Positions 2,447-57,337 of a stretch of 64,000 bases of DNA are shown piece by piece. Every line of letters starts with the position of its first letter. The stretch's first letter is position 1. The notes beneath the pieces are model-generated. The model was given only the letters and a program-made list of their open reading frames with translations, was not told the DNA's origin and searched no databases. The DNA comes from Glandiceps talaboti (lineage: Eukaryota; Hemichordata; Enteropneusta; Spengelidae). The stretch lies in the NCBI RefSeq assembly GCF_964340395.1, contig NC_135555.1, positions 13,644,746 through 13,708,745 on the forward strand, given 5' to 3'. The position numbers were made by a program, and so were the translations under genes.

Positions 2447-3022
2447 CAACTGTAAATAGAAATAATCAAGTTGTCAGTCTAGCTGACATTAGTAGGATCA
2501 CGTTATCTCGACCAATTGATGTCCACATTTTACTGCACTGGCATAGTGTCTATAAAGTTGACATTGATTTTTTCCTCCTCCAGTGTAACAATGAGTAACA
2601 TTACCAAAGGGTTGATGTTGACACACCCCGATAAGATAAATGTCTGGTCCCACTCAGACTTGTATTGAGTCTCTGGGTGTAAGCCTTGGAGTCTGACTTA
2701 CTTCACTTTGTGTTATGATTTACATTGTTGTGAAACTACATGTCTCTCTATGACATTAACCAGGACGTAGTGGAAACAATATGCCCTGGCTTGCGAAATG
2801 TATAATTTATTATTGTAATGTGTACAACTATCTTGAAAAACAACTCAAGCAGGCAGTTTTAGTGTGATATCTCTCTGGCTCTGTCTCTGTCTTTATCTCA
2901 GCTGTATATTCTGTGTGTCTGTGTCTGTCTGTCCCTTACACACACATAAACACAGACACAGGCACACACACATATACATGTGCTTACACACATATATCAC
3001 ACAGACACACCTATACACACAG

Positions 3023-3039
3023 ACACACACACACACACA

Positions 3040-3127
<88 letters not shown>
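3023..3127. repeat. Compound (CA)n(CT)n microsatellite
   Basis: A short CA tract runs directly into about 43 CT units. The flanks from 2920 are also rich in imperfect CA. The long translations across it are low-complexity artefacts. Confidence 0.97.
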
Positions 3128-3128
<1 letters not shown>

Positions 3129-3189
3129 ATAAAGCCACAGTCACTTTGTGTCAACACCAATTCACAAATCCTGTCTCACTAGAGAAATA

Positions 3190-5926
3190 AAATGGATCAA
3201 TATACCCGGTAGTTACCATTTTAACAACAAGTTCTAGACTAACAATTGTGAGCAATTGCAGTCATTTGGTATATCATCTGAAACTCTTGATAGTACTGGG
3301 TTTGGAGTATGTCATTTCTCAGTTTTAGCTACCAAGTCTGTATACTCCAGACTAGCTGTGTTGAGTGACACTGCTCAATGTAGGCTACAACTTCAAACTA
3401 ACAAATACCACTCCTGTAAATCATGTTTTTACAGTCTATAAAACTAACAAGTGTAATGTACACCATCCTCAGAAACTAGTACTCTACATACAGTTCAGTG
3501 GCCTGCACTGGTGGCCATTTGTCATCCCTGGTAGTTTGCCGGCATGCCATCAGCTATTTATGTGTTGATTCAAAGCGTGTACACAGTATTAACAGGTATT
3601 ACAGAGTCAATGTGTTGTATGAAGATCAGTTACCATGTTTGACTGAGTTACTTGATCCAATTTGAGACATTATTGTTTTATCTAAATAAATACTTGCATA
3701 CAACTCAACTAATATATTTATATCAACTTGGACCCTGAAGTGATGTATAAAAATCACCCTGTAGTGTTTTTCACGATAGAAATTAGGTTTCTCAAGTGTC
3801 CCAATATCGATGACATTTTCTGGGTGCACCCAAAAATGATGTCATCCAATTCTTGGTACCTACAGTGGCATTTTGGTCAAAAGAGAACAAGACATTCAAT
3901 ATAATTCTTCATGCCTATATTTATGTGTATGTAGTGCATGCAGTTTGCGGAAGTCATGCTGTTGACCAAGAAATCGAATTTCCATGCCTCACCTAAAGAG
4001 TAAAATTGTATTTTCAGGTAACGAAAATTGTTCATTTAGTTTCCCAAAATGTGATGCTCAAGATCTTCTGGCTACTGTGTGGTACTGATTACATATGATT
4101 TAGTAGGGAAAAAAATAACACTGCAAAAACATTCAGAATCTAGACCGTGCTCTTTTAAACAAGTTTGTAGCTTTCATTTAAATCACTGATAATAAGCATG
4201 TACATTTCATTTCTAGACACCCACAACAAGGTGATTAACCTCCATTTCAGGGAATGTCGTCTGGCATCGATACGTCTACTCACAATTTATGTGTTGATTC
4301 AAAGTACATGTCCTGCATTATCAACCAAGGGCCGAGGTGAAATGAACAGACATTTATACAGATATAGACATCAGTCATCCCTCTTTTAAAGAAAGTACTC
4401 TAACAAGGTCATATCTTGGGAGAGGCCATTAAATGGAGTGTGTAATTTGTTGATTTTGTCTAATTAAATGGAAAATCAGATCAAGATAATTAGCTATGCA
4501 TTGTGAAAATGTAGTTTGGTTATATGCTGTCCTCTTTAATGGTAATTGCAGACTCTGTTAAGGAATTGATATATATATATAAATGAAATGAATAGGTGAA
4601 ATATACAAGAAAAAGTGAAATATACAAAAAATAAAATTAAACATACAGAGTATGAAATGTATAAGTTATTTTTTTGTTGTACATTATCAGTAATTTAGAA
4701 CATGTATGTCATGTGAAAATGTGTAAACATTTGAATAAAAATTAATCTATAGTTATTTTTGTCAAGATATTCCGTTATGTCGTTTTGTACATTACTTTGG
4801 ATCACAGAAATGTACAAAGTAAGGGTAATGAAATAAACTGTACAGATTTATAATTTGTTGGGATATTTTGTACCAGAATTGTTATTTAGTGTATGACTGC
4901 AGAATGTAGTGTGTATGACACATAATAATGTAGCTAGTAGATGATTTATAACATGTGAAAACTAATATTAAATATTATTACTACATACACATCAGAGTTT
5001 GGGTTGTGTCCTGCAGACATGTGTTATATATCAACAAACATATCTCACAAAACGAGTGATTTATGTTGAAGGGGGTGTTGACCTTTGTATATATGATAAA
5101 ATAGGTCATATCAGGAGACGTTTATGAATGACTTGCTGCGATATGTAACCCTGACTCCATTGCTTGCCACCATACATAGAAAGAAGCCAGTCCACTACAC
5201 ACGCAGAGTTAATGTTAGATCACAGACCCTCGCATGGTTATCCCTGCAGTGTGCTAGGGACTGGACAGAGATTTGTTTAAATAGGGTCAGATAAGGTCAC
5301 CGGTTACCTTGACCTGCACTAAAGCCATTGCTTGTTTACATAGTGACTGTGTGGTCTCGCCTTTAGGATAACCATAGCGATATGGAGAAGGAAACTACAT
5401 TGTGCTGTTAATGAAGTCCTTCCGGTGATTGGCCGATATGATAGCAAATTGTGATCCCATGTTGTAATATATCACCCTTATCTCCCCCCCCCCACTCCCA
5501 AATGCATGCACATTTGGGAAACATTTCAATAGTTTTTATTATCGCTATAAAAATGAAAAGGCAATGAGGCTTACCACCTGAGTTACCAGTACAGGAAGAG
5601 TTAAAGATAACAAAGTCAGGGCAACAATTTCCGTAGATTGAACATTGTATACATTTCACACAATTTGAACACATGTTGGTATAATGACAGACATTGACCT
5701 AGTTATCAGATGGTAAAAGGGGACTGCTACTGGTATGAAGGAATTTTAGGCCAAGTAGGTCATCAACTTTGATCTCATCAAAATACTCTCACCCCTGCAT
5801 ACAGAATGGTTTTGTCAAAAAAAGTTTTAACAGTAGCTGTAGTATTACCGTAGATATTTTGCGACTTTTTAGAACGGGTTCATCTTCAGCAGCAAAATAG
5901 CTCAGTATTGAATAAAAGTCAGTCAG
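3190..5926. other. Intergenic stretch with no recognised gene
   Basis: AT-rich sequence with stops in all frames at short intervals, a short poly-C run near 5487 and no splice-consistent coding block that I could recognise. The longest translations are below 90 codons and low in coding character. Confidence 0.6.
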
Positions 5927-6019
5927 TATGATAGGTAAGTCATAAACTGTGTGGTTATGGATTTGTGTTTGTTACATGTAAGAATCTCTAGTCTCACGCA
6001 ATATTAAAATATAGATATG

Positions 6020-6114
<95 letters not shown>
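5927..6114. repeat. Direct duplication copy 1 plus (CT)n tract
   Basis: The segment from TATGATAGGTAAGTCATAAA to the start of the CT tract (5927-6020) recurs base for base at 6457-6550, an offset of 530 bases. Both copies end in a long CT run (here 6023-6114). Confidence 0.9.
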
Positions 6115-6118
<4 letters not shown>

Positions 6119-6300
6119 CATTCAAGATTACATTGTGTGTTTGCTGCCTAAGTAATTACAGAAAAGCTGTTTGACATATTTTTGTCTGACATGTTACCGC
6201 ATGGAAACAAATGTGAAAGCTTGTTGAGTGATCCCCAGTCATTGATGACTATTCAACGTTCCACACTCTAAGCTATATCCAGTTACTAACAATAAATCGA

Positions 6301-6400
<100 letters not shown>

Positions 6401-6456
6401 TACGCTCTGCCACTGTGGTATAGAGCACTGTCTTAGCAGATTGATACTCACCGAGT

Positions 6457-6549
6457 TATGATAGGTAAGTCATAAACTGTGTGGTTATGGATTTGTGTTT
6501 GTTACATGTAAGAATCTCTAGTCTCACGCAATATTAAAATATAGATATG

Positions 6550-6644
<95 letters not shown>
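6457..6644. repeat. Direct duplication copy 2 plus (CT)n(TA)n tract
   Basis: Second copy of the unit at 5927. The CT run (6553-6627) passes straight into a TA run (6628-6644), so this copy ends differently from copy 1. Confidence 0.9.
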
Positions 6645-8401
6645 ATTGGATTTCAACTATATCCTATCCATAGCAGTCTGTGGAGAGCGAGAAGACATAG
6701 TCGAAATCTACCAAGGCGAGAGTCTTGGCTACTCTTACTGTGGCTTTACTAAGCCTTTAGTACAAGCTTTGATAATTATGACATTATTTTTGTTTAAAAA
6801 CTAAATTAATATTTACCGCCAGCTGCAGCGGGGCATGAGGTAAAAGAAATTTCATTCTTCAAAGTATGACTAATGTATATAGACACATTACTCAGCTTGC
6901 TTAGATCGGAGTAATGAGGTCTCAGGTGTCGAGTTGAGTAATCTTAATTGTTTGCTTTACCATTACGCACTAATTAATCCTTCATTATGTAATCAAAGAT
7001 AATTGCATTTATGATAGATGAGTCATCAATTAAGGTTTTTATTTTGACTCTCAATGATTATTAGTTAAAGTGATATTATATTACAATTTTATCCGTGGAC
7101 CAAGCTAAGAATCTTCACTAGTTGACAACTTTGCTTGACATAGTCAAGATCAACTAACGAAGATACTGAGCTACCGTATAGGCCGTAGACCTTACAATAC
7201 TGCTATCCACGCGAAACAGTCTTGTGACGTTATGTCAAAGCGACAAGCTTATGATACGAACTTTTGCCTCGGGTGACTTGATACAACAGTGTCTCGTAAA
7301 TCAATACCAAGTCTGCCATCTTGTTACGGATATTAAACGTACATTAATAGAATGTGTTCGGTGTAGCTTTATTACTGCTTGTATTGCCAACATGTTTATA
7401 AACTTTAAAAAAAACACACAAGTAATTATAGATTCTAATGATGGCACATAACATGGCAACGCTTTCAACCAAATGTGTAAGAGTTTTGCACTAATTCTTT
7501 AATAATTGTTCAATGATTTAAAATTAAATTCCATGTCAAAAACGTCTAATTTTATTCGTAAAATAATAAATATTATTTTTCTTTTAAGTTCTTGTCTGGT
7601 ACTTTTGGGGGTATTTCTTCAAAATAGATAAACCTCGATAATAGCCTGTCATGACTCGATCTACGGAAAACTTCACAGCTTACCGCGTGTATGTGTTGTT
7701 AATACTTGCAAAAGAGCAGTGGACAAAAGTCTTCTTTGGGGCATGGAGAGACAATGAATAAACGATTATGATAGAACAATACAACGAAATATGTGCAAAC
7801 AGCGGCAACTCAGAAGTATTGTATTATAAAAGTGCCTGATCTGCCGTATATCTCTGAAATCATATGTCGCTCGTTAGTCAGGCTGATTGAATGTTCGCAA
7901 TGTGGCGAAACCACTTTTGTACGGGTGTGATGTCATTTATTGGTGTAAAGAAACACGGGTCTCGTTTTAGTATCTCAATATATCACTAAGGTATTTATTC
8001 GTATAATTACTAAAATATGTTCAGTTCTGCGCGTTCAAACTTAACGCGTGCCTCCTCCATGAAAATCTTTCGTACATATTTTAGATATTTCTTCGGCAGT
8101 CTTACTCCCTTCCATCTTTCATCTAGTAGAATGGTATGTGCCAGGTAAGATAGGTGATATCACGTGACTTGAAAACACGATACTTCATTCGCGGGATATT
8201 TCTAAAGAACTTGTACATGTTTTGTATCGATGTTGAATTGAATGGTTTTGAGGCGACCCGGGCCCACCTACGACTGTCACCCTCCACTCCAAAAGCCAGG
8301 CACCGAACGTTTACGAGTGATTTACACAAAAGCAATCGATGGAGGTGTAAATCGCTTGGTAGACACACACTACTGGTATCATTTTTCTTGGCTGGACAAT
8401 C
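6645..8401. other. Region upstream of the lactamase-repeat gene
   Basis: Mixed sequence, slightly richer in CG dinucleotides from about 7620 than the surroundings. I see no coding exon. The part just before 8402 is presumably the promoter and 5' UTR of the next gene, but no TATA box or clear initiator stands out. Confidence 0.4.
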
Positions 8402-11400
8402 ATGATGTCTATTACAAGTGGCCCGATTCTTTGTAAAATTGTGTTGCTGTTTGTAAGTTGTTGTTGTTGTTTGAAGCTAGGATGGTCCATCAAAGTAAAT
8501 GGTGAGTACATATATATGCTTCATTGACTTCCGAAGATCTAATTTATGCGAGTAGATAGTGAAAGTTTCAGTACATTTACAGAGTTAGAGCTCAGTGTAT
8601 AACAACCGATAGAAACGTGATAGCTACAGTGTCTGAAAATGATGAGTTTTAGTCAACATAATTACCCAAATTATATTTTTAACCGAAGTACGGTGAATTA
8701 CAGAGCAGCAGTACCGACCGCACAGGCATCGATTGTCCGGAGCGTTGCGCCCAGGTACGAGACACGATAATTGGCCCCTTTAGTTAGATTGTAAATATGT
8801 ACGCGGTAAGTACTGCCAGTAGTGGGCAGTTTCTTTACATAAAATTTTGATTTACGGTTGGAATTGTAAGCGAGAGTGTTTTGCAGGTATTGCAGTTTCT
8901 CATTTATATTGAAGTCTGTAATCTTCGGTACACATAACAGTCATTGTAATCAGCTTAAGACTGTGTAATTAGTTTGTGTTTCAACAACAATAATATTAGA
9001 TATGCAGCTTTAGGTGGTCATTATCAAAACTTTTAGTCCTCTCTGTGCTATAATCAAATTAAAATTCTGTCGACGTGAACGAATAGTGATACTTCCATGG
9101 TTTCGACAAGTTATACCGTAATGTTACTAACTAACTTACTGACAGTTTTCCGCATCTCTACACAGTCCCAGTCAAATTGTGCTTCAGTTACAGTAATGTC
9201 ATTTTACGTGAACGTTAAAGTGGTTAGGTGTTTTCTATCAACTCAATCACACCAGCTTTTCACAATGTTCAATCTCCATTCTTTTTAAGTATGTCCCGTG
9301 ACATGACAGTGATTTGCATTTAATGATTTGCCCAGTGTTGTGCATTGGAGCATAAACACTCACCAAACCTCCAAGAAAAATTAAATCGCAGTTCATCTCT
9401 CTTTCTCAATAACGATATTCTGTTCAATCAGTGTGTGCATTACTTGTGAAAATATTTCGATAGTACTGTAAAAACTGTAATGAAGCTGTTGTAGTTTTTC
9501 TGTTTTGAAATGTCAATGTTTTGTCTTGGTGAAAAAAAGTATAACGTTCGCTTTCAATTAAGTTTTAACGAGAGAAGACATAACAGCTATAGCCATAAAA
9601 TGTAAGGAGGTTGGTAATAAAAAGTAAAATACACTTTTACAAATATTCCTAGTGAAAACAAAAGAACGGAAATAAGGAACAGAAACAGTGTTTGGTTACC
9701 CCCTATACTATTTTATTAGGCCATACAATGACTCAGTGTCAATCACAAACTGCACTGACTTCATGTGACAAAGCTGTGGTTTATTTTTATGACATAACCC
9801 TGCCTTTGATTTGACAAAACATTCACACTTAGCAGTAAATGTTATTTTCCATAAATTGTTTTAGTTTCTAGCTCAGAGGCTTGACTTGACAGTGTTATTA
9901 TGCATGGTGTCAGAGCAGCCTCTGTCAAGTTACTATGTTGAGCCAGACAGCAAAATCTCAGGGCCAGATATTTTTCATTCTTTGCATGCTGCAAACTAAT
10001 GTGGTTGTAGGTTTTTTTTTATTTATAATTTTTTTTTAAAATTTGTTTCTGTAGGCATATTGTATATGAAGGTACATATAAATGAATACCCAACAGAAAA
10101 TACAACATTGAGTGTGTGCTTTATCGAACACATTCTACAATGTTATTTTCAAATGTTTTTTTTTTATCCAAATAAAGATGTAGACACCCTGCAGGGTTGA
10201 CTGGTCTGTGTATGGCAGACTATTTTACACTGAATGACAAATCCAAGTTATCAGTGAAAGAGTACAACTAATGGGTATCATGTACAATCTTGTCTGAGAG
10301 TTCAAATGTTTGAAAACTAGCCTGGGACGATAACACCATGTCAAGAAGTGTGGAGGATAGTCCAGGCACTAAGCTATTTTCAAATATATTCAGTCTCAGT
10401 AAAATAGTGTACATACATATGCACAATCATGGCTACTTTCTGTTGTATCAGATATATCAATACATGGCTTCCAATCTGTAAAATTGACACCAAAATAATG
10501 TTAAATTTGACCTCCCTGCGTCTGTTAAATTGACATTATTTAACACTTACAATATCTATATTCCACTATAACAGGTGTATTAGACTGGCCTTGGGTGCGA
10601 GTTGATAAGCAAAATACATAACATACTTCGGTTGTTAGTTTTACCACTAGCTATCACTCCAGAGAAATTATTGTTTTTCTAACTTTGCAATCATCCATGA
10701 TAGCCATATGTTCAGTCATGATACTCTGCACACAACGATCATTCACTTTATAAACAAACAAGAAAAATAACTGATTTTTTTTTTCGATGGGAAAAAATAA
10801 GGTATGGTCGACAAGGCTGTGGTTGCCTATATACAGACTCAATATGCAAATATATGTGACCTTGAGTGGTAAACTCATTGACCTCCCAACAGTTTGACCT
10901 AAAACGTACCCTCCAATCTAGGTGAAGAGTTATCACACGAATTGAGAACTATTTTTTCCCCCTGCAGAACCGTAAATTCTGATGTGATATTGTAACAACT
11001 GAGTGGTGTAAATATCGGAGAAAGAATTAGGGAAAAATAAAGAGGAAAGAATAACAGGTTTCAAAAATAATTTGGTTTGTGGTATAGAGAAGTTTTGTGA
11101 AACCGGAAAGGGTGTTTTTTTTGTATAGGTTATATTTTATGTTATTGAGTGTTCAGCAAATGTTGAAATCTCCCACTTCTTCCGGAGCAGTGATAGCTGT
11201 TTATCGTACTAGATCCAAACACATAAATCTAGATTGCAAATGATAGATTAAAATCGGGGGCATTTTTATTACCAAAAGTGAACTTCATTCTTTTCACATA
11301 CACAGTCTCAGTTTAGAGTGTACTAGGCACTGTAAAACCAACAACTCTGTTATATCATCGGATTTTGTATACTTGCACTGTGTTACTGCACTCTATTGTT

Positions 11401-14400
11401 CACTTCCGTTGATATTTACTCAACTTTTTTCTCCAGAGAGTGGGAGTGAACAAAGAAAATGGCTTTAGAATCACAAATTAGTCCAAGTCATGAATACGAC
11501 TTCCTTCCATCAGTGATTGTATGCTGAGAGACAATTGGACACTTCATGATGGTAATCTCAGAGTTGTATACAGATTAAGGGCCTCTTAAGTCGTGGAGTC
11601 AGTGAAAGGGGCTTGAAAGTGACCAAAGTTTATGCAAAGAATTAGAAAGATAAAAGACAATACTAACAGCTTAAATAAGATAAGTAAAAGTGATCAAGTC
11701 ATTGAAGATATGTAAACTTGTAAGATGCTCTGTGTACAAAATGCTAATACTGTGATAGAAACTGTCAAAAAAAACATGACAATGCTTGTGCTTCTTTTCC
11801 AAAATGCTAATACCTTCGTTAAAACTCAGCAAACACTTTTATACAATGCTTGCTTTATTTGTAAAACTCCAATAGTCAAAACTGGTTTATAAACATAAAC
11901 GAAGCCAAATAAATCAGGGGTAAAATATAGAGTTTACCCTGAAGAAAAAAGCAGTAAATTTGCCTTTCTGTAGATTTCCTTATTATACTGGAAAGTGCTC
12001 CTCCCGTCTAAGTCTCGGTAAATCAACCATAAAAAACCAAACAGTACACAGCAAACACAGCAGCCTTTATACTCCTACCAAGACACCAGTGAAGCTACTC
12101 ATTAGTTCTTCCCTTATACCTCCATGGTTTCATTCATCGAACCTGGTATAGCCACAAGGCATATCTGCTAGTGATATATAATCATCCATACACATCAGGG
12201 AGTTTCTAGGGTGGGAAGTTTTTTGGACTTGGTTCAGTACATATCCTGTATAGATATACACTACACATAGTTAATTATCCTTGAAAATATATACATGTTA
12301 AGTCAACCTTACCAGGTGTGCCCCCAAGGGTTGTAGACAGTTTACATAATAATATATAATTATATCCTTGCCAGATGTACCCCCAGGGATAGTAGACAAT
12401 TTATACATTCACTGTACTAATAAATCACGCCAGGTGTGATCCCCAGTAGAGTTAAAATGATTCATCATGTGCCATACAACTTGCCAGGTATATCCCAAGG
12501 GTTCTAAATAATTTACAGTTAAATTATACAATATTATAGTTTTGCCAGATCTACCCCAGGAGTGATAGCTAATTTACATATGGCATGCTATATAATTATA
12601 ATCTCACCAGGTGTACCCCCAGGGATGATAGGTAATTTACATATATGCTATACAATTATAATCTTACCAGGTGTACCCCCAGGAGTGATAGGTAATTTAT
12701 ACATGTATATAATTATAGTCTCAGCAGGTGCACTTCCAGGGGTGGTATATAATTGACAAATAATTAGTCTTACCAGGTGTACCCCCAGGGATGATAGGTA
12801 ACTTACATATAATTATAGTCTCAGCAGGTGTACCCCAGTGGTGGTAGGTAATTTACATATAATTATAGTCTTACCAGGTGTACCCCAGTGGTGGTATGTA
12901 ATTTACATATAGTTGTAGTCTCACCAGGTGTATCCCAGTGGTGGTATGTAATTTACATATAGTTATAGTCTCACCAGGTGTACCCCAGTGGTGGTATGTA
13001 ATTTACATATAGTTATAGTCTCACCAGGTGCACTCCCAAGGGTGATATGTAATTGAAAAATAATTATAGTCTTATACCAGGTGTGGTAGGTAATTTATAT
13101 ATAACTGTAGTCCTACCAGGTGTATCTCAAGGGGCAGTAGGTAATTTACATGTAATTATAATCTTACCAATACCAGTTGTACTCCCATGGGTGGTAACTA
13201 ATTGACATACAATTGCAGTCATACTAGGTGTCTCCCCCCCCCCCCCAATGCATAACTAATTTACATACATGTTGTAAAACTGTATTCATGCCAGATGTGC
13301 CCCAGGGATGGTAGACAATTTACCGACATACTAAACAATTATAACCTTGACAAATATACCCCCAGGAATAATAGATAAAAATACATACATGCCAAGCCCT
13401 ACTAGGTGTGCCCCCAGGGGTGGTAGTCAATTTACAAACACACTATGTGGTGTTCTTGTTAGTAATAGCCATGCCTGGTTTGTTCACTTCAGGGTCTATG
13501 GTTTAAATGTCCACATGTTGATGTTTCTACTTTTGCATGAAATAGACATACTAATTAACTTAAAGTATGCTAATGGTAGGTACTTTACCTTGGGTCCATA
13601 GTTATTCAAATATTGTCCCAGTTTAAGTGTCACACACACCTGACTTATTGGTGTATATGCTTTGTGTTTTGCTGTTATCGTTTTATCTCTTATCCGTGAA
13701 AAAAAATACCAATTGAAGTACTTTTTTCTTAGAGGAGAGGTCAAACAGCTTGATAAACTGGGGTCTTACTCACTAGCCCATCAGATGTCTATGTTGCTGG
13801 ATCTGTAACTACCCACAGTAAGGTACTAGAATGGGCTTTAGCATGGTCACAGATCAGTGATGTAGACAATAAGCCAATCTCGGCTAATGTTTCTGAAAAA
13901 AAAAGTTCTTTCCAGCGTATGTATCTTTATCTGAATCAGTAGCATGTCTACGCAGTGGAGCTGTGACTCTGCTACACTAGTTGTCTACGAATGAATGTAG
14001 TAGAGTCACAGATCCACTGAGTTGACATGAATGAATCAGAAGAGTAGAAAGAGAAATAAAAACATCTAAGTACATTAATAAATATTTCCTTCAATTTCCT
14101 TAAAATTTCTGGCCTTGAAATGAAATACTCCACAGAGTATACAGGTATAAGTTAAACTAAATTTCAGTTGGCGAAATATGTCAATTTTCAGCTAGGTTGT
14201 TGAGAGCCATTTTTGCGTGCCAGAACAAGTTTTATGCTTTGCGAAAAATTTGAGAACATTTAGGGAGAGTATTCTACCATTTGCTACATATAGTCTTGGA
14301 AGTTTACAACATTTTGAGCACTCTGGCTGTGTCTGTTGTTGTTTACTGGAAAAAAAATTGTGCTGTCTAAATTTAGTATCAATGGATTTACTGAGGAAAA

Positions 14401-17400
14401 CATTGCTAAGAGGCTACTTGCTGAAATAATGTTATTTTGACGATTTCCAAACATATTCACAATAATTCTTGTCCAAGCATGCAATTTTAATTAGGAAAGC
14501 ACACAGTGAGTTTGAATTGTTTTCAAAGCTTTTATCACAAGGGTGTCTAATGGCACTAACAGTTATGTAGGTTCAAAGTTTGTATTTATTATACAACACT
14601 TCAAATCCCCATTGTCAAGTTTTTCAAAACTACATCAATAGCAAAGTAATCTGCTAGTCTGTCTGATTGCATTGCCATGACAACTAATCTCAGATTTTAG
14701 TGAGTATTACTACACTCAATTGTTCTAGTAGTGAAACAACAATCGCTATCTGTATCTGCCATATGAAAACCACCCTTTCCTGTGTCTGACTTTTAAGCCA
14801 AGAATTTAGTTGATAATGGATACAAAGTGTTTCAAGCTGTTCAAGAAAAGTTACTGGCCAGGAAATAGTGTCTATATAATAGTGTCTCCTATTTGTACAA
14901 CCAACAGGAACAACTTTGATGTATGTTTTTTGTCATGACGAAATTTTTTTTGAGACTGAAATGTGCTGGGTAGACATTGGCATTTCAGCTATGCGTAAGA
15001 CCGGACTATAAACATATTTAGTTTTGATAAATGCTACCGGAAATTAGACCAAACATGTCAGCTGCAGTTTAAATGAGAAATTTGTAGCTCAGTTTTAAAG
15101 AATACATGTTATTGCTAGCTTTTGAAAGTTCTTAAAACTGCAAATTTATTTTTCAGATAAGTTTTTGAGCTACATTTCCTACTAAATTAGGAGGTTTTTT
15201 TTTTTTTTTTTTTTTTTTTTTGGGGGGGGGGTTCAGGTCTGACGTACACAAAGCATGTAGAGAGATGACAGAATGATTTGCAGAAACGAATGTTTAATTC
15301 AGTCACTGATGTTAACCTGAATGTAATGATTGAATACAGGCCTAGAAAAGTGTGTTGCTTCATTTCAATATCTGAATATTTCTCCACATGTTTAGAATTC
15401 TAAATTTTTTTAGGAACTGACATAAATTTATTTTTATCCACATTGCATAAGTTGATGAAGAGTTAGTTTAGAGTCTGTGCAAGAAGATATTGCCGAGATC
15501 AACCCAGTGAAGATTTACATAAAAGCTCAGGAACAGTTAGTTGGCAATGGCTTTTGTTTGGCAGGATTTGGCAGATCTCAGCCACTGGGTGCAAGGTCAC
15601 ACACGTTGTAGAAAGTAAAAAATAAAACTAAAAAAAAATTTTTTTGCTAAAAAAAAAGTCACAGAGTTGGAGAAAATTGATTTAAAAAATTGTCAAAGTT
15701 AAGAACTGCATGTAGTGGTGATTTTGATGACTACTGTACTGGTATGAAGATTATTAAGTGAGATGAATTCTTATCTTTTGATTCAGAAAATATGAAGAGG
15801 GAAAGTGAAAAAAAACAAAGATCCACATCATGCTACTGTAGAAACAGAATTTTGAACATTCTGGTGTCAGTATAGGCAATTGTGTTTTTTGATTGACAGC
15901 AACGAAACTTTCAACTTCTCCAGGAGAGATTTGTCGTACCACACAGTATTGTAATTTAGTGAATGTTTTCATAGTTTGAAGTGTTCTATGTGGTACAATT
16001 ACAAAATACAGCATTAGAGAGAGTACTAGAATGACACACACATAGTTCTGATTGTCAGTTCATGTGCGATACTCGTGTCTTGTTTTGTACGGTAATGGCT
16101 TTGTGGTGACCTCTCTGCCACCCCATTAAGATTTTAAGATTGGGTTAAATACCTAGGGGCTGTCTCAATACTTAGCAATGATCAAGTTATACACAATCAG
16201 ACAACATGCATATTTTGTTTCTAATTCCCTGTTGGCTGACAGTCTATCTGAACGGTGCATTTAACAGGGCTATTTTGTTACGATTCCAATGTTGGGAGAC
16301 AGGCGATCTGAACAGTGCTATTAACTGGATATTCTTGTAGTTTGATACTTCAAGTATCTGAATGCCACTATTTAAGTGGGATAGTTTGCGTTAAGTACTC
16401 TAAGATCTGAGACACATCACCTGTTTGACATATACACTCACGGAGTTGTATAGTCTAGAGGGGTTTTATAAATCACATCAGAATTTGTCAGCTACACATG
16501 TCAATACTTTATATTCTTTGTTGCGGTATTTAGTCAAGTTTCATCAGATTGTTCATTCCTGTTTTTGGACTGTGATTTAAAAGGGCTCAGGTTGAGTTTG
16601 CACATTCCGCTAACAGTGCCTGGAAAGGATTTTTAATACCATCATAGCTTACACGGATATTTACATTGAACTAGAATAGTATATTGAGGTTTTAAGTATG
16701 TATTTTCACTTGCATAAAAAAACTTGTAAACATAGCTTATGTCTATAAACAAACAATTTAGAGTAAAGGTGTTTCTTGATCATTGGTCAAAATTGACAGT
16801 TTATCAAGTTAGGATTTGGGCAACAATTTTCTTCTTTTAGTTTGTAAATGAGTGAGCGAGTTAGTGAGTTAGTGAGTGAGTGAGTTACTCTGTTTGTGTG
16901 TTATGAACTTGTGTGTTTGTATTTCTTTGTAAGACCTTCAACTTTAGGTGATCTTGTGGGAAAGATAGGAAAAACTTCCTGTATTAGTGTCAAAGCTTTG
17001 CTGTAGACTTGTTCTAAACATACTTGAAACAGGTTCTTCTAACTTTCGTTCCAAATCATCCCTTGAACAGAGCAGTACAAATTTTGTATATCCAGTATAA
17101 TTGGATAATCTATAGTAATCCCTCATGGCTCAACAAAGTCTACTAATCCTTGGCTTCATATTACCCCCTCCCCCCATCCCCCAAATACAGATACATAAAC
17201 TTGACACTAAATAGTGGGGCTTTAGATTACCCCTGATGTAGATACATAAATTTGATACCACATAGATTGGACTTCGATTACCCCCCAATGTAGTTACATA
17301 AATTTGATACTAAATGGAGTCAGCCGCAAGTCTTGTTGCGGTAAGGTTTGCCACTGGTACATGTTGTCACAGAGCTATTGAGTTTGACCTTGTCCTGTAC

Positions 17401-20400
17401 CTGGATAGTCTCTCATTACTTCTTGAACAGTCGCCATACTGTGTTGTGATAGCTGCAACAATTCACTCATACAGTGCAATTAGGGATTCGGTATCTTAGT
17501 AGGTATACGATATCAAAAGGTCGTATTCATGCAGCCATCAAGTAGAGACAAATGGGGATTGAAAACAAAAGTATCGTTATATTCTAGAACGCAAAAAAAA
17601 AAACGTGTACTGCTTCCAAAAACAATCAAATTTGACATGATCATACTTGATGTGGTCAAGTCAAGTGGGTGGGCAAGGAGGCATCTGTGAAGCAAGTAAA
17701 CTGTAAAGGAAAATCAGAAATTCATATATAATTACTCTCGAATCGTTTACGTTTATGCCTGAAAGAATAACAGAAAATAGCTTCATCTTTACATTTTACA
17801 AGAACATGATTTTTGCATGTTGTATGATATTTTGATAAATTGTCTTTTATAAATACATGGATGGATGTAGAACACAGCATTTTTAAAACAAATTGTGAAG
17901 AAAATGAATTTGTGTTCACAAAGTACGACAGACTTCAAATTAAGGTTTACCGATTTTTGTTTTGAAGTTTTATAGTTTATGAAAAGTAAAATGGGGGCGA
18001 TTACAAATTATGAAAATACTCCTTGCCCTCCCTTGGTAAAGACTCAGTATGTATTCTTCTGTGGTAATGAATGACTTGACTTCAGTGGCATGTTCATTCT
18101 CTAGGTCAGCTTACAATGGCCGCTTGTCACAATGAAGTGGTACATTCATTTTCTTTATATTGGTATGAATTATGAGGCACTATACATTCCATGTATTGAA
18201 TAGAACAAAGAGTAAGTTGTAAAGCAGATCAAGTTCAATATGTGTGACTGCAGTGGTAAGCACGTCACATCTTTTAGCAGGTATAGAAGTGACTATTAAA
18301 GCCATTGTCGGCCTCTTTCCACAACGAACTTGTTTGTTAGAGTTCAGTATGTGTGACTGTAATGGTAAACACATCACATCTTTTAGCTGGTATAGAAGGC
18401 ACTATTAAAACTATTGTCGGCCGCATTTCATAACAAACTTGTTGTGAGAGTTCAATAAGTGTCACTGTAGTGACACATATCTCTTAGCTGGTGTGGAAGC
18501 AGCCTACCTGTAGACTTGAGAATAGCTATCGCTACACTATTCCACTATCCTAACTCACATTTTGTACTTTTGAATTAGAATTCCCATATGGAGTGAAAAT
18601 TCAAAATGTCAGTTAGAATACTGGAATAGTGTAGTGATCGTCGTTCTCTAGTCTACAGGTAGGCAAGTGTGGAAGTGACTATAAAATCATTGTTGGCCAC
18701 TTTTCACAACAAACTTGCTAAAGTTCACTATGTGTGGCTTGTGGTAAACACAATATCACATCTTTTAGCTGGTATGTGGCCATTCCACTACCATTGTTGA
18801 CCACTTTTCTAAATGGACTTGCTCAAGTTCAATCTATGAGACTATGGTGGTAAACATACCACATTTTTTAAAGCTGGTATGGAGGTGGCCATTCCAATCA
18901 TTGTAAGTGAAATTAGTCCGCTATCAAATACATCAAAGTCATAAAGGTGTCAAGGCCTGAAAACAATTACCAGTAATTGCATTGTATTTTGTGTAACTTG
19001 AAAGTTTTTATCTTGTCAGGATTTGTAGACTAGCATTCACACTTTTCAATAAGAGGATTGACAATTTTTGTCTTAGCTGTGATTCATGGTCTGCATTCAC
19101 ACAATTAATTAGGGTTCCTAAATCAAGTCTTTGTGTGGTTTGGAGGCTGTGTATGTAAATTGATTTGATGTATACTGATGTGGTTAAAGTAGACCGAAGG
19201 ATTTGTTGTTGTGGGTATTCTTTTAAAGCCACACTAGCTGTAACTTGAGTGTCATTTTTTCAAACTGACAACCAATGATTTCTTAACTGAAAATTGTTAA
19301 AATTCTAATAATGAGACATTGTAAATGTTAATTAGAGGTCAGTTTTATTCAAAAGTAGTATAGTAAGAGGTCCAAATCATGATCTATATAGAGGTGCTGA
19401 TTTTTGGGTGTTGACCCAAAAATCAATTTGATTGGATTTCTTGTACCATATTATGTGTTTGGCTACACAAATCTGTTTACCCACAGGCGATTCAATGCTG
19501 TTCAGGGTGTACAATATTATAAGTAAGTCATATCTAACAAAGCAGTTTCCCCCAAAAAACCAAACCCTGTCACAGTTGCAGCTAGTGCAGCTTTAAAGTT
19601 GAATCACTAGTATTTGTGAATCTTTCACAGGAGTGTGTGTGCCAGCAACAACAAATCTGTCTGTCTATCATTAGTACTGACATTAAACATTTACTTCTAC
19701 TGTTTGTTCAGGCCCAGATGAAATCTTTGACTCCAGCGCTGAAAGAAAAAGTGTGAACTATTTTGTCTTACGAGTACATGCCAATACAAGTTTTGTCCCT
19801 GTGAAAAGATTTGTGTAAGCCTGACTGCACATACATGTAACTCATTAATTTCATTAAGGCTGAAAACAGGACAAGTAACAGATGAAAAATAATACAGTAA
19901 CAGGTCGAAATCATGGGGGGGGGGGGGGGGGGATTGAAAAGTTTAAATACATCAGACTTTAATAATCAAAATTTCCAAATTCATGAGTTGCCTTATGTTG
20001 TGTTGCCCAGTAAATTTACATAATTTCCACACATGAAAGTTTACAAAAAAAATGCCTTTTTATTTCCTGGAGTGGCATTCCCCTTTAATTATGGCTATAA
20101 GTTTTGTGACATTTTTTCACTTCTTCATTTTCATTTCAACATAATTGTCCATCTTAGTGCATAGTGATATGGACAGACCGAATATGAATCTTTAGTACAA
20201 AATAGGCACTTTAAATCTATTCTTCTGGAGAAAGCGTTTTCTTTAGACAGGCTATGGACAATATAACATTTCAAGTTGTATATGCCAGGGTCAGGTTTTC
20301 ATATTAGAGTTAAATCTAATCAGGGAAGCCATAAGGATTACATAGGATTATTCTTTTGTTCTGGACCAACTTTTTGTAAACTCTACCAGACAACTGTTTT

Positions 20401-22541
20401 TCTCCCCTAAATATTAATTCTAATGGGAACTGCATGGGCCTTGAATTATAAGTTCAAAATTACAACAATTTTTTTTTTTAAATCAAAAATAAGATTATTG
20501 ATGTCAGTTTTATAGTTTAGAGTTTATTTATTTTCAAAAGTTTTTCTGTCATTTATATATTTCAGGTCCAATAACTCTGACCAATGACCAAAATCCTGAC
20601 TTCTCAGGACTGGATAGAACACTAATATCGTTTCTGGAAGACAATGAATATACAGGAGCAACTATTGGTATCGTGAGTAATGGCAGATTGGTGTATACAC
20701 AGGGCTATGGTCATACTGTAGATGGCTCTGACATGCTGCCATCCAAACTACTGCACTCCTCTAGCATTTCCAAGTCTATTACAGCAGTGGGTATCTTGAA
20801 ACTGGTACAAGAAAACAAACTTGGACTTGATGAAAGTGTATTTGGTGATAGCGGCATCCTGTCACATTTACACTTGGCAAAGCACCATCAGATAACAGAT
20901 CCAAGGATATATGAAATCACAGTCCGGTACCTATTACAACATTCCGGAGGTTGGTACCATCGCGACGATCCTGTTTATGATGCAGTGCTCAATAAAATCC
21001 ATCTATCACAAGGGTCTGATAATGCTGAAGCAATGGATATCCGTGGCAACCAATCTCCAGACAACTTTATCAAATATATGATAACGCAACCACTTGATTT
21101 TACACCCGGAACAAAATATCAGTATTCAAACTTTGGGTATTTAGTTTTAGGACGTGTTATTGAAGCTGTGACAAAAAGAAAGTACAAAACGTATATCACA
21201 GATGAGATTCTGACTCCACTTGGTATGTGGCAAACTCAGATTGGGCCAATGGAACATGATCATACTTCTTCAAATCTCAAATTTGATGCCTTAGCAGGAA
21301 GCGATTTAGCTGATCGTCAAAGCGCCTACGAATTCTTAGATTCTGCATTGGGATGGTACTCGACAGTCTATGATCTGCTGAGATTCAGCGAGAAAATACC
21401 TTCCATCTTAGTACCAGAAAGTTTACAAAATATGCTTGAACGTCCGTTCATAAATGAACACTCCAACACTTGGCACGGGTTAGGTGTTCACATCAACATT
21501 CATAACTCCTGGTGGCAGACTGCTGACACTCACGACAACGAATTAATATTGTATAATCAAGCTATGTCCACACAGCAAGGAAGACATGTACAAAAAACCG
21601 TGGAAAGTTACGTGATTATGTTGAGTCAGAACAACAGAAAAGACATTCGTAAGTTGATGACTAATGCCATTAATACTGTTCAACATTGGCCAGATGAAGA
21701 CTTGTTTACAACCGACTGTGCCGACTCTATTCATAGGGTGACAGACGGATCGGTCATTCTAATGAAATACAGACTAGCTGAACATCAGATACAAGCCTAC
21801 GGTGCTGCATTAGCATATTACAAATTTTACCCCATCTGGATCAATGGACACATCATAAAAGGAAACACTTATTTCAGTGTTATTTTTCAGCAAAACCCCC
21901 AAAATGAAGAAACCATCGAGGTATTCTATGATCTCGATAATTATAAAGTCAATGAAATAATTTCTACCAGGCCGCTGAGTTCTCCTAATGTTCAATATAT
22001 GACAAGCTATGTGAGTCACAAACACAATGGACACATACATTATGTTGTAGTAGTTGGTAGCGGAGGAAACGGCGGTAAGCATATCAACTGGCATGAAAAG
22101 TTAGGAAAATATGAACAGAGACTAGCAGAGGTGAAGGAAAATGGACAAGTACCGGTAGTTCAAACCGTGAAAAATCACAACGGACAGAATTATGTTACTG
22201 TGGTGGTTGAAGACAAAAAGGTTTCAAATTGGAAATCCTATACCAACATCTCTATGCATAGCCTTGACGGTCTAATCAAACAAAACGCAAAGGCACTGAG
22301 AACTCTGTTTTACTTAGACGCAAGAACAGAAGAAGAAGATGGTGGTGTGAAATTTTCTGCTGTCTTTTGCCAACAGAAATATGCAGACTGGCTTGTACAT
22401 GTAAAATTATCTGAATCACAACTCAAAGAAGAAATTCACAAACTTAAAGGTTTAACGTACAGTCCAAAAATTGTTGTTGGTTACGAGATGAAAGGAAAAA
22501 CGTACTATTCAGTAATGTGGGGAAAGCCTAGCGGCAGATAA
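8402..22541 (+). CDS. Secreted serine beta-lactamase/PBP-like protein with C-terminal polyglycine-hydrolase-type repeats
   Basis: Two exons, 8402-8501 and 20566-22541, join in phase (G|GT, donor GTGAGT, acceptor TTTCAG) to give 691 residues. Exon 1 encodes two Met, a Lys at 12 and a hydrophobic run through CCCCLKLG, which looks like a signal peptide; the product is therefore probably secreted. Residues about 45-400 are a class C beta-lactamase/penicillin-binding fold: SISK (S100, K103) is the S-x-x-K nucleophile motif and YSN (220-222) the second box. The third box, usually HTG or KTG, aligns with WWQTAD, giving Q-T-A at 351-353, so activity may be altered or lost. Residues about 435-691 hold roughly five degenerate units of 45-50 residues (helix, then strands ending like YFSVIF, YVTVVV, YYSVMW). 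They resemble the repeats (BTRD1 in Pfam, from memory) beside the lactamase-like domain of fungal polyglycine hydrolases. Substrate unknown. Exon 2 is firm; exon 1, 12 kb away, rests on phase and the signal peptide. Confidence 0.75.
8502..12299. other. First part of the 12-kb intron
   Basis: AT-rich sequence without a coding exon that I can support. A short CG-richer patch at about 8700-8800 contains a CCCAG/GTACG junction and could hold an alternative 5' exon or promoter, but nothing else backs this. Confidence 0.45.
12300..13440. repeat. Degenerate ~50-bp minisatellite in the intron
   Basis: Over 20 diverged units, each built of ACCAGGTGTACCCCCAGGG, a GGTAATTTACATATA segment and an AATTATAGTCT segment. 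Identity is highest between about 12600 and 13050 (AGTGGTGGTATGTAATTTAC units) and falls outwards. Every unit has CAG/GT in its core, so the array carries many weak splice-like sites. Confidence 0.9.
13783..13870. mobile_element. Small foldback element related to 13940-14031
   Basis: The left part (ATGTCTATGTTGCTGGATCT then GTAAC) is an imperfect inverted copy of the right part (GTCACAGATCAGTGATGTAG then ACAAT). The arms resemble those of the next element. Confidence 0.5.
13940..14031. mobile_element. 92-bp foldback MITE with 8-bp target duplication
   Basis: Two arms of about 34 bp (13943-13976 and 13996-14029) are inverted copies with a few mismatches, sharing CAGTGGA, TGTGACTCT and CTACA. 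The direct repeat TGAATCAG flanks them at 13932-13939 and 14032-14039. An 8-bp target duplication fits a hAT-type origin. No coding capacity. Confidence 0.75.
14040..17158. other. Middle of the 12-kb intron
   Basis: No exon seen. It contains a T33-G9 homopolymer junction near 15196-15230, a two-unit ~75-bp tandem repeat at about 16213-16335 (GGTGCATTTAACAGGG / AGTGCTATTAACTGG) and GAGT-rich tetranucleotides near 16850-16890. Confidence 0.5.
17159..17316. repeat. Three-unit ~60-bp tandem repeat
   Basis: Three units share ATTACCCC, a GTAGATACATAAA-like block and TTGATACTAAAT. Divergence between units is moderate and the first unit has a longer C tract. Confidence 0.75.
18180..18905. repeat. 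Degenerate ~108-bp tandem repeat interrupted by a MITE
   Basis: Five units begin near 18233, 18341, 18450, 18724 and 18826 with GTTCAATATGTGTGACTG-like sequence, followed by CACATCTTTTAGCTGGTAT and ATTGTCGGCC-like blocks. The gap between the third and fourth units is filled by the foldback element at 18500-18666. Confidence 0.8.
18500..18666. mobile_element. ~165-bp MITE inserted in a tandem repeat unit
   Basis: Terminal inverted repeats start GCCTACCTGTAGACT (18502) and end AGTCTACAGGTAGGC (18664); pairing continues inward to CTACACTATTCCA/TGGAATAGTGTAG. GTGTGGAAG is present on both sides (18491-18499, 18667-18675) as a probable 9-bp target duplication. Confidence 0.8.
19223..19603. mobile_element. 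~380-bp TIR element (TTTAAAGC family)
   Basis: The left end TTTTAAAGCCACACTAGCTG and the right end CAGCTAGTGCAGCTTTAAAG are imperfect inverted repeats of about 27 bp. The interior is AT-rich without a long ORF. A related element lies at 22880-23545. Confidence 0.65.
19604..20565. other. Intron end before the large lactamase exon
   Basis: No exon found. A poly-G run lies at about 19916-19932. The sequence ends in the pyrimidine-rich acceptor TTTATATATTTCAG immediately before 20566. Confidence 0.5.
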
Positions 22542-26870: not shown

Positions 26871-28139
26871 TGGTGCATAAATAGAATAACTCTATCAGTG
26901 GTTGGTAGGCAGGATTGTCAAGTAATTCATCTTCATCAGGGATCAAGGGTCGACTACCGAGTGCTGCGTTAAACTTTTCCTCGGCTAAACTGTCATCAAA
27001 GCTCTCATCATCTGTGTAATCTGAAATGAACCATTTATTTGACTAAATACTAGATTGCTCTTAAGGGACAATTCCAGAAGAAATTAAACCAAATTTTTGT
27101 ATTACAGTTATGTATTTATCCGATCTACGGTTACAAAATGGGATCTCAAAAGAGGGCTGTCCTTCACGGTTCCATGTCAATGCAGGAGAAAACCTGGGGA
27201 AAACATACATTGTTTGTTAGAGTTAAACTGAATGACACTCTTCATACAATAAGTAAGGCATATTTACAACCAGTGACAGGCAAGCATTTACAATCGGGAC
27301 TTGTTACAAACAGGGAAAGTAAATAAATGAATTGGATTAATAACACTTGGCACAGCATGTTGGAACAGCAGAGACTTGTATTACATTTCATGGTTTGATA
27401 AGAAGTTTTAAGGCATCGTTATGTGTACATGAAATGCCAGGGGAACTTGAAATGCATTTGTGAATGCAAGCTCTCATGTAAAGAGTAGTATAGTTCCAAC
27501 ATTTTGTACCAAGTGTTATGCCAATCCATTTATTTACTTTCCCTGTTTGTAACAAGTTTCGCTTGTAAATGCTTGCCTGTCGCTGGTTGTAATCAAACCC
27601 AGACTTGGCTCAAAAACCTTGACCAACAGTGTTAAGACAAAATAGTTTAAAAACCCAGTCATCGACAAACTCAAGTTGAGAAAAAATACAGTCTTTATAC
27701 AGAATTATTTCATAATTTTTTTTATCTCAGAAGCACAAGATTGCCTGGGAAATATTTATGAAGTTGAAACTGTGCTGTATTGACACAGACAGGCCCTATC
27801 TTGTAAAGGACTCAGAGTTACCATCTAGAAGTTACCTTCTGCCCTGATACAAGTTCAACTAGTGTTGTAAATAACTTACCTAGTAAATCTATGTGGGGTA
27901 TTGACAATGCCAACATTTCCCATATAATCAATCCATAAGAAAAAATATCAGCTTTATCAGTGATTTCAGCCCCTATGACAGCTTCCTTACATTTCCAGGG
28001 ATCACTACCAATGTAGAAATCACCTCTATTCTGTATATGACAATGGAAACACAACACTGAATGTGATAATATTGCGGTGGGTTACAATTATTTGATCCCA
28101 AACTATCTGTTGGGTTTTTATGCAAGTACAGAAGCAAAG

Positions 28140-28217
<78 letters not shown>

Positions 28218-28255
28218 CGCAAGCGTGCATGTGTGTCTGTCTGTCTCTCTTTGTC

Positions 28256-28325
<70 letters not shown>

Positions 28326-30563
28326 TGGATATTTGTGTGTACTTTATGAGCACTAAGGTCTCTGTTACAAGGTCTCAGTTTAAATTTCAATATAAGAATA
28401 TTAGTAATTCACCAACAATGACTTGTTTATTTGAACTTCATTTATACTATAGTGTGAAGGGAGATTGCATCTTCACATGATGTAGAATTAACATTTCTTA
28501 GTTTCATTTTTCATGTGTACACAAAGTGTCTATAAATGGCATCTTTGTTTTTTTAACCTTTCAGATAGTTTACCTTGCAGATATAAACTACAAGTACAGC
28601 ATAGTATTACACAAAATTCAAATCAACTCTGTCAATCTTACCTTGAGACCGGACAGATCTTCCTTAAGTTGTAAAGCCACTCCAAAGTCACAGAGTTTGA
28701 CTGAATTAAAGTCTCCAGTTATGAGAACATTGCCACTTTTTAAATCACCATGTAAAAGTTTCTTGTCATTATGAAGATACTTCAAAGCTTCTGCTACAGA
28801 TAATGCTACTTTGTACATCTGGTCTGCTGGAAAGGCACCTGTAAACAACAACAACAACAACAACAACAAAAACAACTCACTAAGAGTGTACTTGTAAACA
28901 AAAACAAAAACAATGCACTAAGAGTGTACCTGTAAACAACAAAACAACAACAAGAACTCACTGTGAGCGTACCTGTAAACAATAACTAAAACAACACCTT
29001 ACTGTATATGCAACTATTAACAACAAAAACAACTCACTGAGAGTACACCTGCAAACAACAACAAATTCAGTTCATGTGAGTGCATCTTGCAAACGATAAC
29101 AAAACAGCTCAGTCACTTGAGAGCATCAACAGTAAATGTATCATTCAATCTTTCAATTTACCTATTTTTAATATACATTGTACTACACCATTAAAGGCTA
29201 TAAAATGTAATGTTTACTTGCAATACCTTCATCATTGTCTTGGCGTTCATCTATGAGATCCTGAAGTGACTGTTCACCATTTTCCATGGACAGACAAAGG
29301 TGACCATCTGGTGCTTTGGTGAAGCCACGATATCCTACAATGTTGGGGTGATCTAATTTCTGAAAATAGAGAAGACACATTAAAAGAGACTGCAGACCTA
29401 CATTTTGATACATGTTAGGTAAAAGTTTTATAGGAAGTCCCAACAAGTGTGGCTGATAGGGCAGCATGACAAGTGTGACTGATTGGACAGCACAAGTCAC
29501 ATCCTACAGATTCATGGAGTTATCATGAATTCCTTTAAGTCTTACCTTCAATATTTCTGCTTCTTTTTTCAATCTTCTTTCCATGTTTTTTCCAAGTGTC
29601 TTAGTTTTTGCCTTTACTTTTTTGATGGCCCATGGTGATCTGATGCTACCACTTGGCATGGGACTCCTGAAAACAATTCACAAACACAAAAGTATTTTGT
29701 TATCAATTCAATTTGACCTATCACATCTCATCTTGTTATGAAATACATACTTAGTGACTGGACACACATTACATGGGCGAGGAGGTCAGTTCTGTGTGTG
29801 AAAACGATTGATCCACCCCCCCCCCCCACCCCAAGACCTTGACGACCACCCCTCTGTCATTGGAACATTTGATCAAACATATTGTATTATTGAACAAAAA
29901 CAGTGATCCTTCCCAAAATACTTGCATGAAAAATAGTGATACTCCCTCCAAAAAAAACCCCACCGTTGTGACCGCTCCATCCCCTCACCTGTAATTTGTG
30001 TCCACAGTTCTAGTTCTAATATCATATTCATAAGACTTGTTCTGATAGGTAGGGCCATGGAGGTATAAGAGGAGATACATACTGTCTTCCATGGTTGGGT
30101 TAAATATATTTTGTTACAATTTACCACTTCTTAAATTGTATTTAAGATTTTCATATGTACAATTTACGAACTCTTTATTTTTTCGTGATTATTTCTCTAT
30201 AAAGACCTCCATTGTCACGTGTCACAATCACATTCAACATACAGCTTATCATCATTAACTTATGGTTTTACGAAACAAATAAAATGCCAAAATGTCCTGT
30301 CAAGACGTATCCTCCTAAAAAGACTTTACAGATGATCGTATATACTTTACTTGAAACAACAGTCCGTCAAAATAACTGATCAAATGATTGTTTGATAATG
30401 ATATGAATATTCACCTTTGATATAGGTAGACTGTAACTCCAGTTCCACAGCCCAATTTCTTCATAAATGGCGATGCGGGAATAGTTATTGCGGGAGATGC
30501 AACTGGCAAACGACTTTTTCTTGAAGTGTGAATGGGCGTCTTAAATTCTGCGGTGCCTGCCAT
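26806..30563 (-). CDS. PBK: PBK/TOPK mitotic serine/threonine kinase, complete
   Basis: Six minus-strand exons, 30563-30415, 29666-29546, 29359-29218, 28838-28642, 28030-27880 and 27020-26806, keep phase throughout and give 324 residues; human PBK has 322. Features: FKTP with T9 at the position of the CDK1 site in human PBK; INIPASPFM-like [17 protein letters not shown] with the glycine loop; WAIKK (K65); [21 protein letters not shown] catalytic loop; CDFG, where human has [33 protein letters not shown]; and [12 protein letters not shown]. The C-terminus ends KAVR and lacks the PDZ-binding ETDV of human PBK. Family knowledge: a MAPKK-like kinase phosphorylated by CDK1 in mitosis. The exon 3 donor is GTAAAC at 29212-29217; a GTATTG six bases upstream would remove two residues in frame. 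Head to head with CEP89. Confidence 0.96.
27264..27592. mobile_element. ~330-bp MITE with long terminal inverted repeats, inside the last PBK intron
   Basis: Near-perfect inverted repeats of about 80 bp: TTACAACCAGTGACAGGCAA (27264) pairs with GCCTGTCGCTGGTTGTAA (ending 27592), and pairing runs through the TTACAAACAGGGAAAGTAAA block. The interior has no ORF. A diverged copy lies at about 264-545. Confidence 0.85.
28144..28322. repeat. Split (GT)n microsatellite in PBK intron 4
   Basis: Two pure GT tracts (28144-28214 and 28258-28322) separated by 43 bp of imperfect repeat. They lie between the DFG-loop exon and the activation-segment exon. Confidence 0.97.
28836..29105. repeat. Array of duplicated splice-acceptor segments in PBK intron 3
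   Basis: Read on the minus strand, the real exon 4 acceptor is TTGTTTACAG/GTG. Upstream in the intron the same motif recurs with drift at about 28887, 28926, 28971, 29046 and 29088 (TTGTTTACAGGTAC-like), separated by AAC-rich spacers and AACTCACTNAGAGT blocks. This looks like a tandem repeat seeded from the acceptor. Confidence 0.7.
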
Positions 30564-32716: not shown

Positions 32717-50919
<18,203 letters not shown>

Positions 50920-56851: not shown

Positions 56852-57337
56852 GATTGTGTCAGATTTTATGAGTCGTATTTGGAATATGAGAGAAAAAGTT
56901 TAGAACTCCCTAGTTACATTGAAACTTGAAAAGTAGTACACTTTTGAAATTATACTATTGCTGTTGTGGTCCTTTTTTTAAATTGGGATTTTTAGCAAGT
57001 TAGGTGGTATGATCTACATATCACCATAGAAACTGCGTTACTGCATCACATGATGTGCCATTTAACCTGTTATCTTATCTGAACCTTGGTCCTACTGTCA
57101 TTCTAGGTGACGTTTATGAGAAAATAGGGGTGGTTATGTTTAAATGTAGACAATAGATAACTAGAAAATAATGTCAGTTAACTGAAATGTAAGTATGTAC
57201 ATTGTTGATGTAATCGATACAATGTGTCCAAGTCAAGGATTTTGTTGTGAAAAAAATGTGAAAAATATATATGAAATACTTCATTGAAAAGTTTTTCTGA
57301 TATGTGTTTGTGCAAAGGTTTTGAGACTCTGGCAATG

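Follow-up and report, generated by a model that had tools for sequence, protein, structure and literature searches.

What kind of protein does an animal gene encode when it couples a beta-lactamase fold to tandem repeats of a bacterial and fungal type, and how might it have come by that combination? The question is raised by a locus on the forward strand of a 64-kb window from Glandiceps talaboti, the window being the whole stretch of 64,000 nucleotides that was analyzed. An earlier note on this DNA had described a 691-residue product with a signal peptide, a serine lactamase or penicillin-binding protein (PBP) domain and about five C-terminal repeats. Both its coordinates and its architecture are confirmed by the open frame, Pfam and profile alignment with hhalign, and the assignment of an S12 domain with a complete BTRD1 domain of five repeats behind it, encoded by an animal gene with an intron, is well supported at the sequence level.

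The N-terminal portion of the protein matches Pfam PF00144 with an E-value of 2.3e-41, and its fold and family score place it in the S12 family, of the class-B low-molecular-weight PBP type. In an alignment with 74 relatives, motif 1 reads SISK, with Ser100 and Lys103 at positions held by Ser in 71/74 and by Lys in 72/74, while motif 2 reads YSN, with Tyr220 and Asn222 at positions that are Tyr and Asn in 74/74 each. SxxK and Y-x-N are therefore both present, whereas the third motif, [KH]xG, is replaced by QTA. At its first position the relatives carry His (67), Arg (6) or a gap (1), and at its third position Gly (73) or a gap (1), where the window protein has Ala. Overall, 33 columns are conserved in 85% or more of these relatives, and the protein matches 26 of them.

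The C-terminal portion spans residues ~429-691, in good agreement with the predicted extent of 435-691. It matches Pfam BTRD1 (PF17660) in two stretches, with an E-value of 1.2e-7 and 32 bits against a cut-off of 23, and the best repeat alone reaches 23.1 bits. A hidden Markov model (HMM) built from bacterial repeats only detects repeats 1, 3 (weakly) and 5, and does not detect repeats 2 and 4 singly; its score of 36.3 bits compares with a maximum of 16.1 among 2000 shuffles of the C-terminus, 1175 of which had a listed score. Aligned by hhalign with 21 bacterial five-repeat arrays, the region stays in register over 246 columns at a probability of 97.8%, against 0.2% for a reversed control, as expected for five tandem repeats of ~50 residues forming one domain. 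A predicted structure, of low confidence, shows the strand-helix-strand-strand order (E-H-E-E) in repeat 4. A PDB search with the C-terminal sequence gave a single match, at an E-value of 0.84, which was taken as chance. Past the signal segment the protein has only two cysteines, residue 418 just after the lactamase domain and residue 635 in repeat 4, and a disulfide between them may bridge the linker and the repeat barrel. The features of the gene, in window coordinates, are as follows.

8402..8501, plus strand: coding exon 1, with the start codon, a signal-peptide-like segment, residues 1-33 and the first base of codon 34 (phase-1 donor GTGAGT, hydropathy)
8502..20565, plus strand: intron GT...AG of ~12.1 kb (splice signals), containing minisatellite arrays
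20566..22541, plus strand: coding exon 2, residues 34-691 and the stop (open frame, splice phase)
20598..21710, plus strand: S12 beta-lactamase/PBP-type domain, residues ~45-415, with a WPxxDLF-like tail as in relatives
20763..20774, plus strand: motif 1, SISK, with putative nucleophile Ser100 and Lys103 (alignment with 74 relatives)
21123..21131, plus strand: motif 2, YSN, with Tyr220 and Asn222 (same alignment)
21516..21524, plus strand: motif 3 position, QTA (residues 351-353) replacing HxG (same alignment)
21750..21899, plus strand: BTRD1 repeat 1, residues 429-478 (below the Pfam cut-off alone; repeat HMM, profile alignment)
21909..22070, plus strand: BTRD1 repeat 2, residues 482-535, divergent (profile alignment and spacing only)
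22071..22223, plus strand: BTRD1 repeat 3, residues 536-586 (repeat HMM, weak, i-E 0.03; profile alignment)
22224..22382, plus strand: BTRD1 repeat 4, residues 587-639, divergent (profile alignment; E-H-E-E in the low-confidence model)
22383..22538, plus strand: BTRD1 repeat 5, residues 640-691, reaching the stop (Pfam, repeat HMM, profile alignment)

Exon 2 lies in a frame of 679 codons from stop to stop, the longest open frame of the window. The first Met of this frame is residue 90, within the lactamase domain, so a 5' exon is required. We scanned positions 3000-20500 for an ATG start, a matching phase, a strong donor and a hydrophobic product. The 100-base coding exon at 8402-8501 came top of the four listed candidates, which come from just two exons with two nested starts each, this one and a weaker one near 13515. 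It stops in phase at AATG/GTGAGT and joins ...TTTCAG/GTCC across the 12.1-kb GT-AG intron, which together with the 1976 bases of exon 2 yields 691 residues and a stop; the splice 8501/20566 is thus a predicted gene model. The start of the protein is strongly hydrophobic (hydropathy peak 3.0), in line with the signal peptide proposed earlier, and this signal-peptide-like start, judged by hydropathy, suggests that the protein is probably secreted. Within the intron, a minisatellite at 12533-13169 consists of ~10 copies of ~50-base units (CACCAGGTGTACCCC...GTAATTTAC).

S12 enzymes use the SxxK serine to attack an amide or ester, aided by the lysine and by the YxN tyrosine, and the resulting acyl-enzyme is then hydrolyzed. 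The Ser, Lys and Tyr of this scheme are all present in the window protein, and on balance we favor, by a modest degree, the reading that the product is a secreted hydrolase of two domains, with a remodeled cleft and a substrate-holding barrel. In such an enzyme, Ser100, activated by Lys103 and Tyr220, would attack an amide or ester bond, and an acyl-enzyme would form and be resolved by water. The replacement of HxG by QTA, together with the loss of two further near-invariant glycines, would leave a narrowed or altered cleft, in which case beta-lactams are probably not substrates. Peptides appear the likeliest substrates, perhaps from the bacterial cell wall or from Gly-rich proteins; a role in digestion or defense is a guess. 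As an accessory module, the barrel would hold the substrate or set its position, as has been proposed for the fungal enzymes described below and because bacterial proteins pair it with unrelated peptidases.

The fungal polyglycine hydrolases (PGHs) provide a known system for comparison (Fvan-cmp, PDB 7tpu; Es-cmp and Bz-cmp; PMC9912923). Like the window protein, they combine an S12 domain with a five-repeat domain, in their case a barrel of EHEE repeats, and they keep the nucleophile serine and the analogue of AmpC Tyr150 while the third-motif glycine is gone, being Phe in Fvan-cmp and Ala in the window protein. They are secreted, which the signal-peptide-like start of the window protein parallels. 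Despite lacking that glycine, PGHs cut Gly-Gly bonds, and the tests described there revealed no beta-lactamase activity. The authors propose that the repeat domain, the function of which they describe as unknown, positions the substrate or makes contacts with proteins, and report that the fold of the N-domain is found in all kingdoms. The two systems differ in that the PGH repeats come first and the lactamase-like domain second, an order opposite to that of the window protein, as the earlier note had recognized.

The main rival to the hydrolase is a non-catalytic secreted binder, a pseudoenzyme in which the S12 fold no longer turns over substrate and the barrel recognizes peptides or peptidoglycan. 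We consider this a real but less probable possibility. Several observations weigh against an active enzyme and in the binder's favor: 7 of the 33 strongly conserved columns are altered, including three glycines and the motif-3 His, and the lactamase domain sits on a long branch of 1.67 changes per column. The analogy with PGHs is also weakened by the repeats-first rows of the relatives' alignment, 18/18 of which retain [HR]xG, and with its third motif altered, catalysis itself is best taken as putative. Two points stand against the binder: all four of Ser, Lys, Tyr and Asn are retained, an outcome that one would not expect of free decay, and the fungal PGHs are active without the motif-3 glycine (PMC9912923). 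A more specific form of the hydrolase reading would make the protein an active secreted animal endopeptidase of the PGH type, with a reversed fusion independent of the fungi, a barrel that guides peptidases and an altered motif 3 that sets a new specificity (e.g., Gly-rich or bacterial cross-link peptides); taken as a whole, we regard it as rather unlikely.

The bacterial distribution of BTRD1 bears on both the barrel and the domain order. Few of the sampled prokaryote genomes contain BTRD1: it occurs in 4/296 Bacteroidota, 3/346 Actinomycetota, 17/294 Planctomycetota, 4/349 Pseudomonadota and 5/244 Cyanobacteriota, where phylum names are inferred and the Bacteroidota and Planctomycetota samples were centred on known BTRD1-positive genomes; it was also present in 5/31 genomes hand-picked from those with a related lactamase. 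We examined 41 distinct BTRD1 regions, namely 39 fetched from every place listed in the surveys plus L008 and L009. Independence among these regions is incomplete: L118 nearly duplicates L116, L121 and L122 come from a single genome, and the array of L119 is divided, as described below. BTRD1 accompanies the lactamase in 21 of the 41 and occurs without this lactamase in 18, and the remaining 2 have no match to the repeat HMM. The repeats come first in 19 of the 21 two-domain proteins and the lactamase comes first in two, L110 (Bacteroidota) and L138 (Cyanobacteriota), in both of which Pfam confirms the two domains. The reversed order therefore stands as a contrast with fungal PGHs and falls as a peculiarity, because it is not unique to the window animal.

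Pfam was run on 16 of the 18 lactamase-free regions (all except L135 and L137). Peptidase_M23 lies beside BTRD1 in 5/16 (L108, L111, L113, L117 and L126). L134 carries Peptidase_C70, L142 an FGE domain, and L144 a TonB plug together with a BTRD1 match below the cut-off; 8/16 have no separate catalytic domain, and L008 and L009 also match DUF4177. Found beside unrelated peptidases (M23, C70) and on either side, BTRD1 looks like a movable peptidase accessory. The papain-like C70 peptidase domain of L134 (minus strand, 1440-2744) comes after five BTRD1 repeats.

Among the lactamase relatives L010-L089, repeats occur in 2/80 (L045 and L062), both repeats first. Over 799 frames of L001-L089 the repeat HMM found arrays, apart from those at the loci of the window itself, in L008, L009, L045 and L062 only; L043 gave a single partial match, in a frame that is not a lactamase frame. 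Bacteroidota L013 (2473-4647) and L019 (2902-5094) encode lactamase-type proteins of a length near that of the window protein that carry a type IX secretion tail but do not match BTRD1, so the length of the tail is by itself no predictor of the domain. Other architectures include a 1086-residue bacterial protein in which two lactamase domains precede an M15 D-Ala-D-Ala dipeptidase at the C-terminus (L023, 1205-4462) and an Opitutaceae protein that has two immunoglobulin domains after its lactamase-type domain (L017, 2548-4629). L119 has a repeats-first protein whose repeats are divided between two frames (36-2768 and 2401 onward), through an error or a disrupted gene. A tblastn search of plasmids with the C-terminus gave two matches only, at E-values of 2-3, both of which turned out to be BTRD1 proteins. 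A scan of genome contigs with the single protein returned 7 pattern-matching stretches and no relative, and a search of viral contigs with the repeat alignment returned 150 stretches and no relative.

Two sets of bacterial proteins resemble the window protein in different ways. The planctomycete proteins L116, L118, L129, L130 and L132 share both domains and give the top whole-protein phmmer scores to it among 43 loci; they differ in having the repeats first and a canonical HxG third motif. The best PDB match of L118 is the fungal PGH 7tpu, via the lactamase domain (E-value 6.7e-37). In contrast, L110 and L138 share the domain order and have similar lengths (647 and 654 residues), but the lactamase domain of L110 is more distant (phmmer E-value 1.5e-16), that of L138 is absent from the matches listed, and both sit apart from the window protein on the best lactamase tree.

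For that tree, redundant loci were dropped from 100 rows of at least 270 residues to leave 76, and L110 was added by hand to give 77. The window domain forms the long branch noted above with no supported neighbors, and no supported set of up to half the 77 rows contains it. On the best tree, the three architecture labels cost 9 changes, from which it follows that the domain pairing recurs; the lactamase-first label alone costs 3, and L138 and L110 are also long rows. Approximately unbiased (AU) tests, run with a quick tree on a subset of 46 from these 77 rows, did not reject grouping with the planctomycete repeats-first family (p 0.24) or with L110 (p 0.41). In a tree of 23 repeat arrays, the window groups with L113 and L138 in a three-row set (95/100) on a branch of 4.26, a long-branch placement. 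The order of the domains may have arisen through a swap, through a fresh fusion or by arrival from a bacterium.

The earlier note had raised lateral gain, which is retained as a tentative option. In the form considered here, a bacterial gene with lactamase and BTRD1 would have entered an animal ancestor and later acquired a secretion signal on an added 5' exon. Both domains are present in bacteria, and the lactamase-first pairing is present in L110 and L138. Nearly the whole protein does lie in one exon, as had been pointed out, but this is a weak clue either way. The genome (590 Mb, 47 contigs) was searched exon by exon, with best candidates only scored; the BTRD1 family model found no other BTRD1 exon among its best 3 candidates, and the protein search returned the reported locus and no second copy among its best 6. 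The trees lend the proposal no support, since no bacterial clade takes in the lactamase domain with support, the repeat-tree link to L113 and L138 rests on its very long branch, and the highest identity in the lactamase comparisons is 34-35%. Composition also argues against it: G+C at third codon positions (GC3) in exon 2 is native-like, at 0.367 compared with 0.312 and 0.347 for two stretches of a TRIM gene that the window also contains. The gene is moreover split by the 12-kb intron; the GC of that intron is 0.353, against 0.351 for the window. The N-domain fold reported across all kingdoms (PMC9912923) makes vertical descent with loss possible.

An unlikely origin, in our assessment, is a domain swap, by which the two domains of a repeats-first protein of planctomycete or fungal PGH-like kind exchanged places. 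The planctomycete family is among the best matches of both window domains (with top single-domain scores of 143.5, 143.1 and 142.6 bits for the lactamase domain in L118, L132 and L116, and of 30.2 and 25.7 bits for the repeats in L130 and L129), and the AU test lets the lactamase domain join it. However, lactamases without BTRD1 score alike within noise (L069 142.4 and L010 140.5 bits), L045, of another family, is second by whole repeat score, the repeat tree places the window by L113 and L138 instead, and joining the lactamase-first L110 is equally unrejected.

That the gene is a plain LACTB orthologue whose C-terminus belongs to no BTRD1-like family can practically be dismissed. The tail matches BTRD1 by Pfam and profile alignment, the third motif is QTA where the metazoan family (LACTB, LACTB-like 1 and 2, esterase-like) is defined by [KH][ST]G (PMC2266909), LACTB itself is mitochondrial whereas the window protein has a signal-peptide-like start by hydropathy, and LACTB falls below Flp-type proteins by sequence match. 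The window protein shares SxxK and [SY]x[NT] with that family, as animal S12-fold proteins, and no BTRD1 domain is mentioned for the family in the available text (PMC2266909). A LACTB orthologue would be expected to have a mitochondrial import sequence and a conserved exon layout; the window gene has one long exon. No animal BTRD1 protein was found among the matches listed in the openly licensed PMC literature.

Elsewhere in the window, the TRIM gene is of the TRIM-NHL type (54672-56899, minus strand), with RING, B-box and NHL by Pfam and a filamin repeat below the cut-off. Its two open frames meet with a frame change in a CA/TA-rich run near 56252-56267, which may reflect a pseudogene, a polymorphism, an unseen intron or an assembly error. 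Long CA/GT dinucleotide tracts create spurious frames, on both strands at 27973-28480 and on the minus strand at 37744-38174. A short open frame at 29198-29503 (minus strand) resembles a protein-kinase exon, presumably PBK/TOPK-like. An Rfam scan of the window at gathering scores gave no match.

By family score, the protein appears to be assembled from known parts, BTRD1 and S12, and to differ in their order and in its third motif. An animal protein with the parts of a fungal PGH in the other order, taken together with the bacterial survey, points to the barrel as a position-independent peptidase accessory, a role that could be tested by moving or removing the barrel. Should the protein prove active, animals would have a further type of secreted S12 enzyme alongside the LACTB family.
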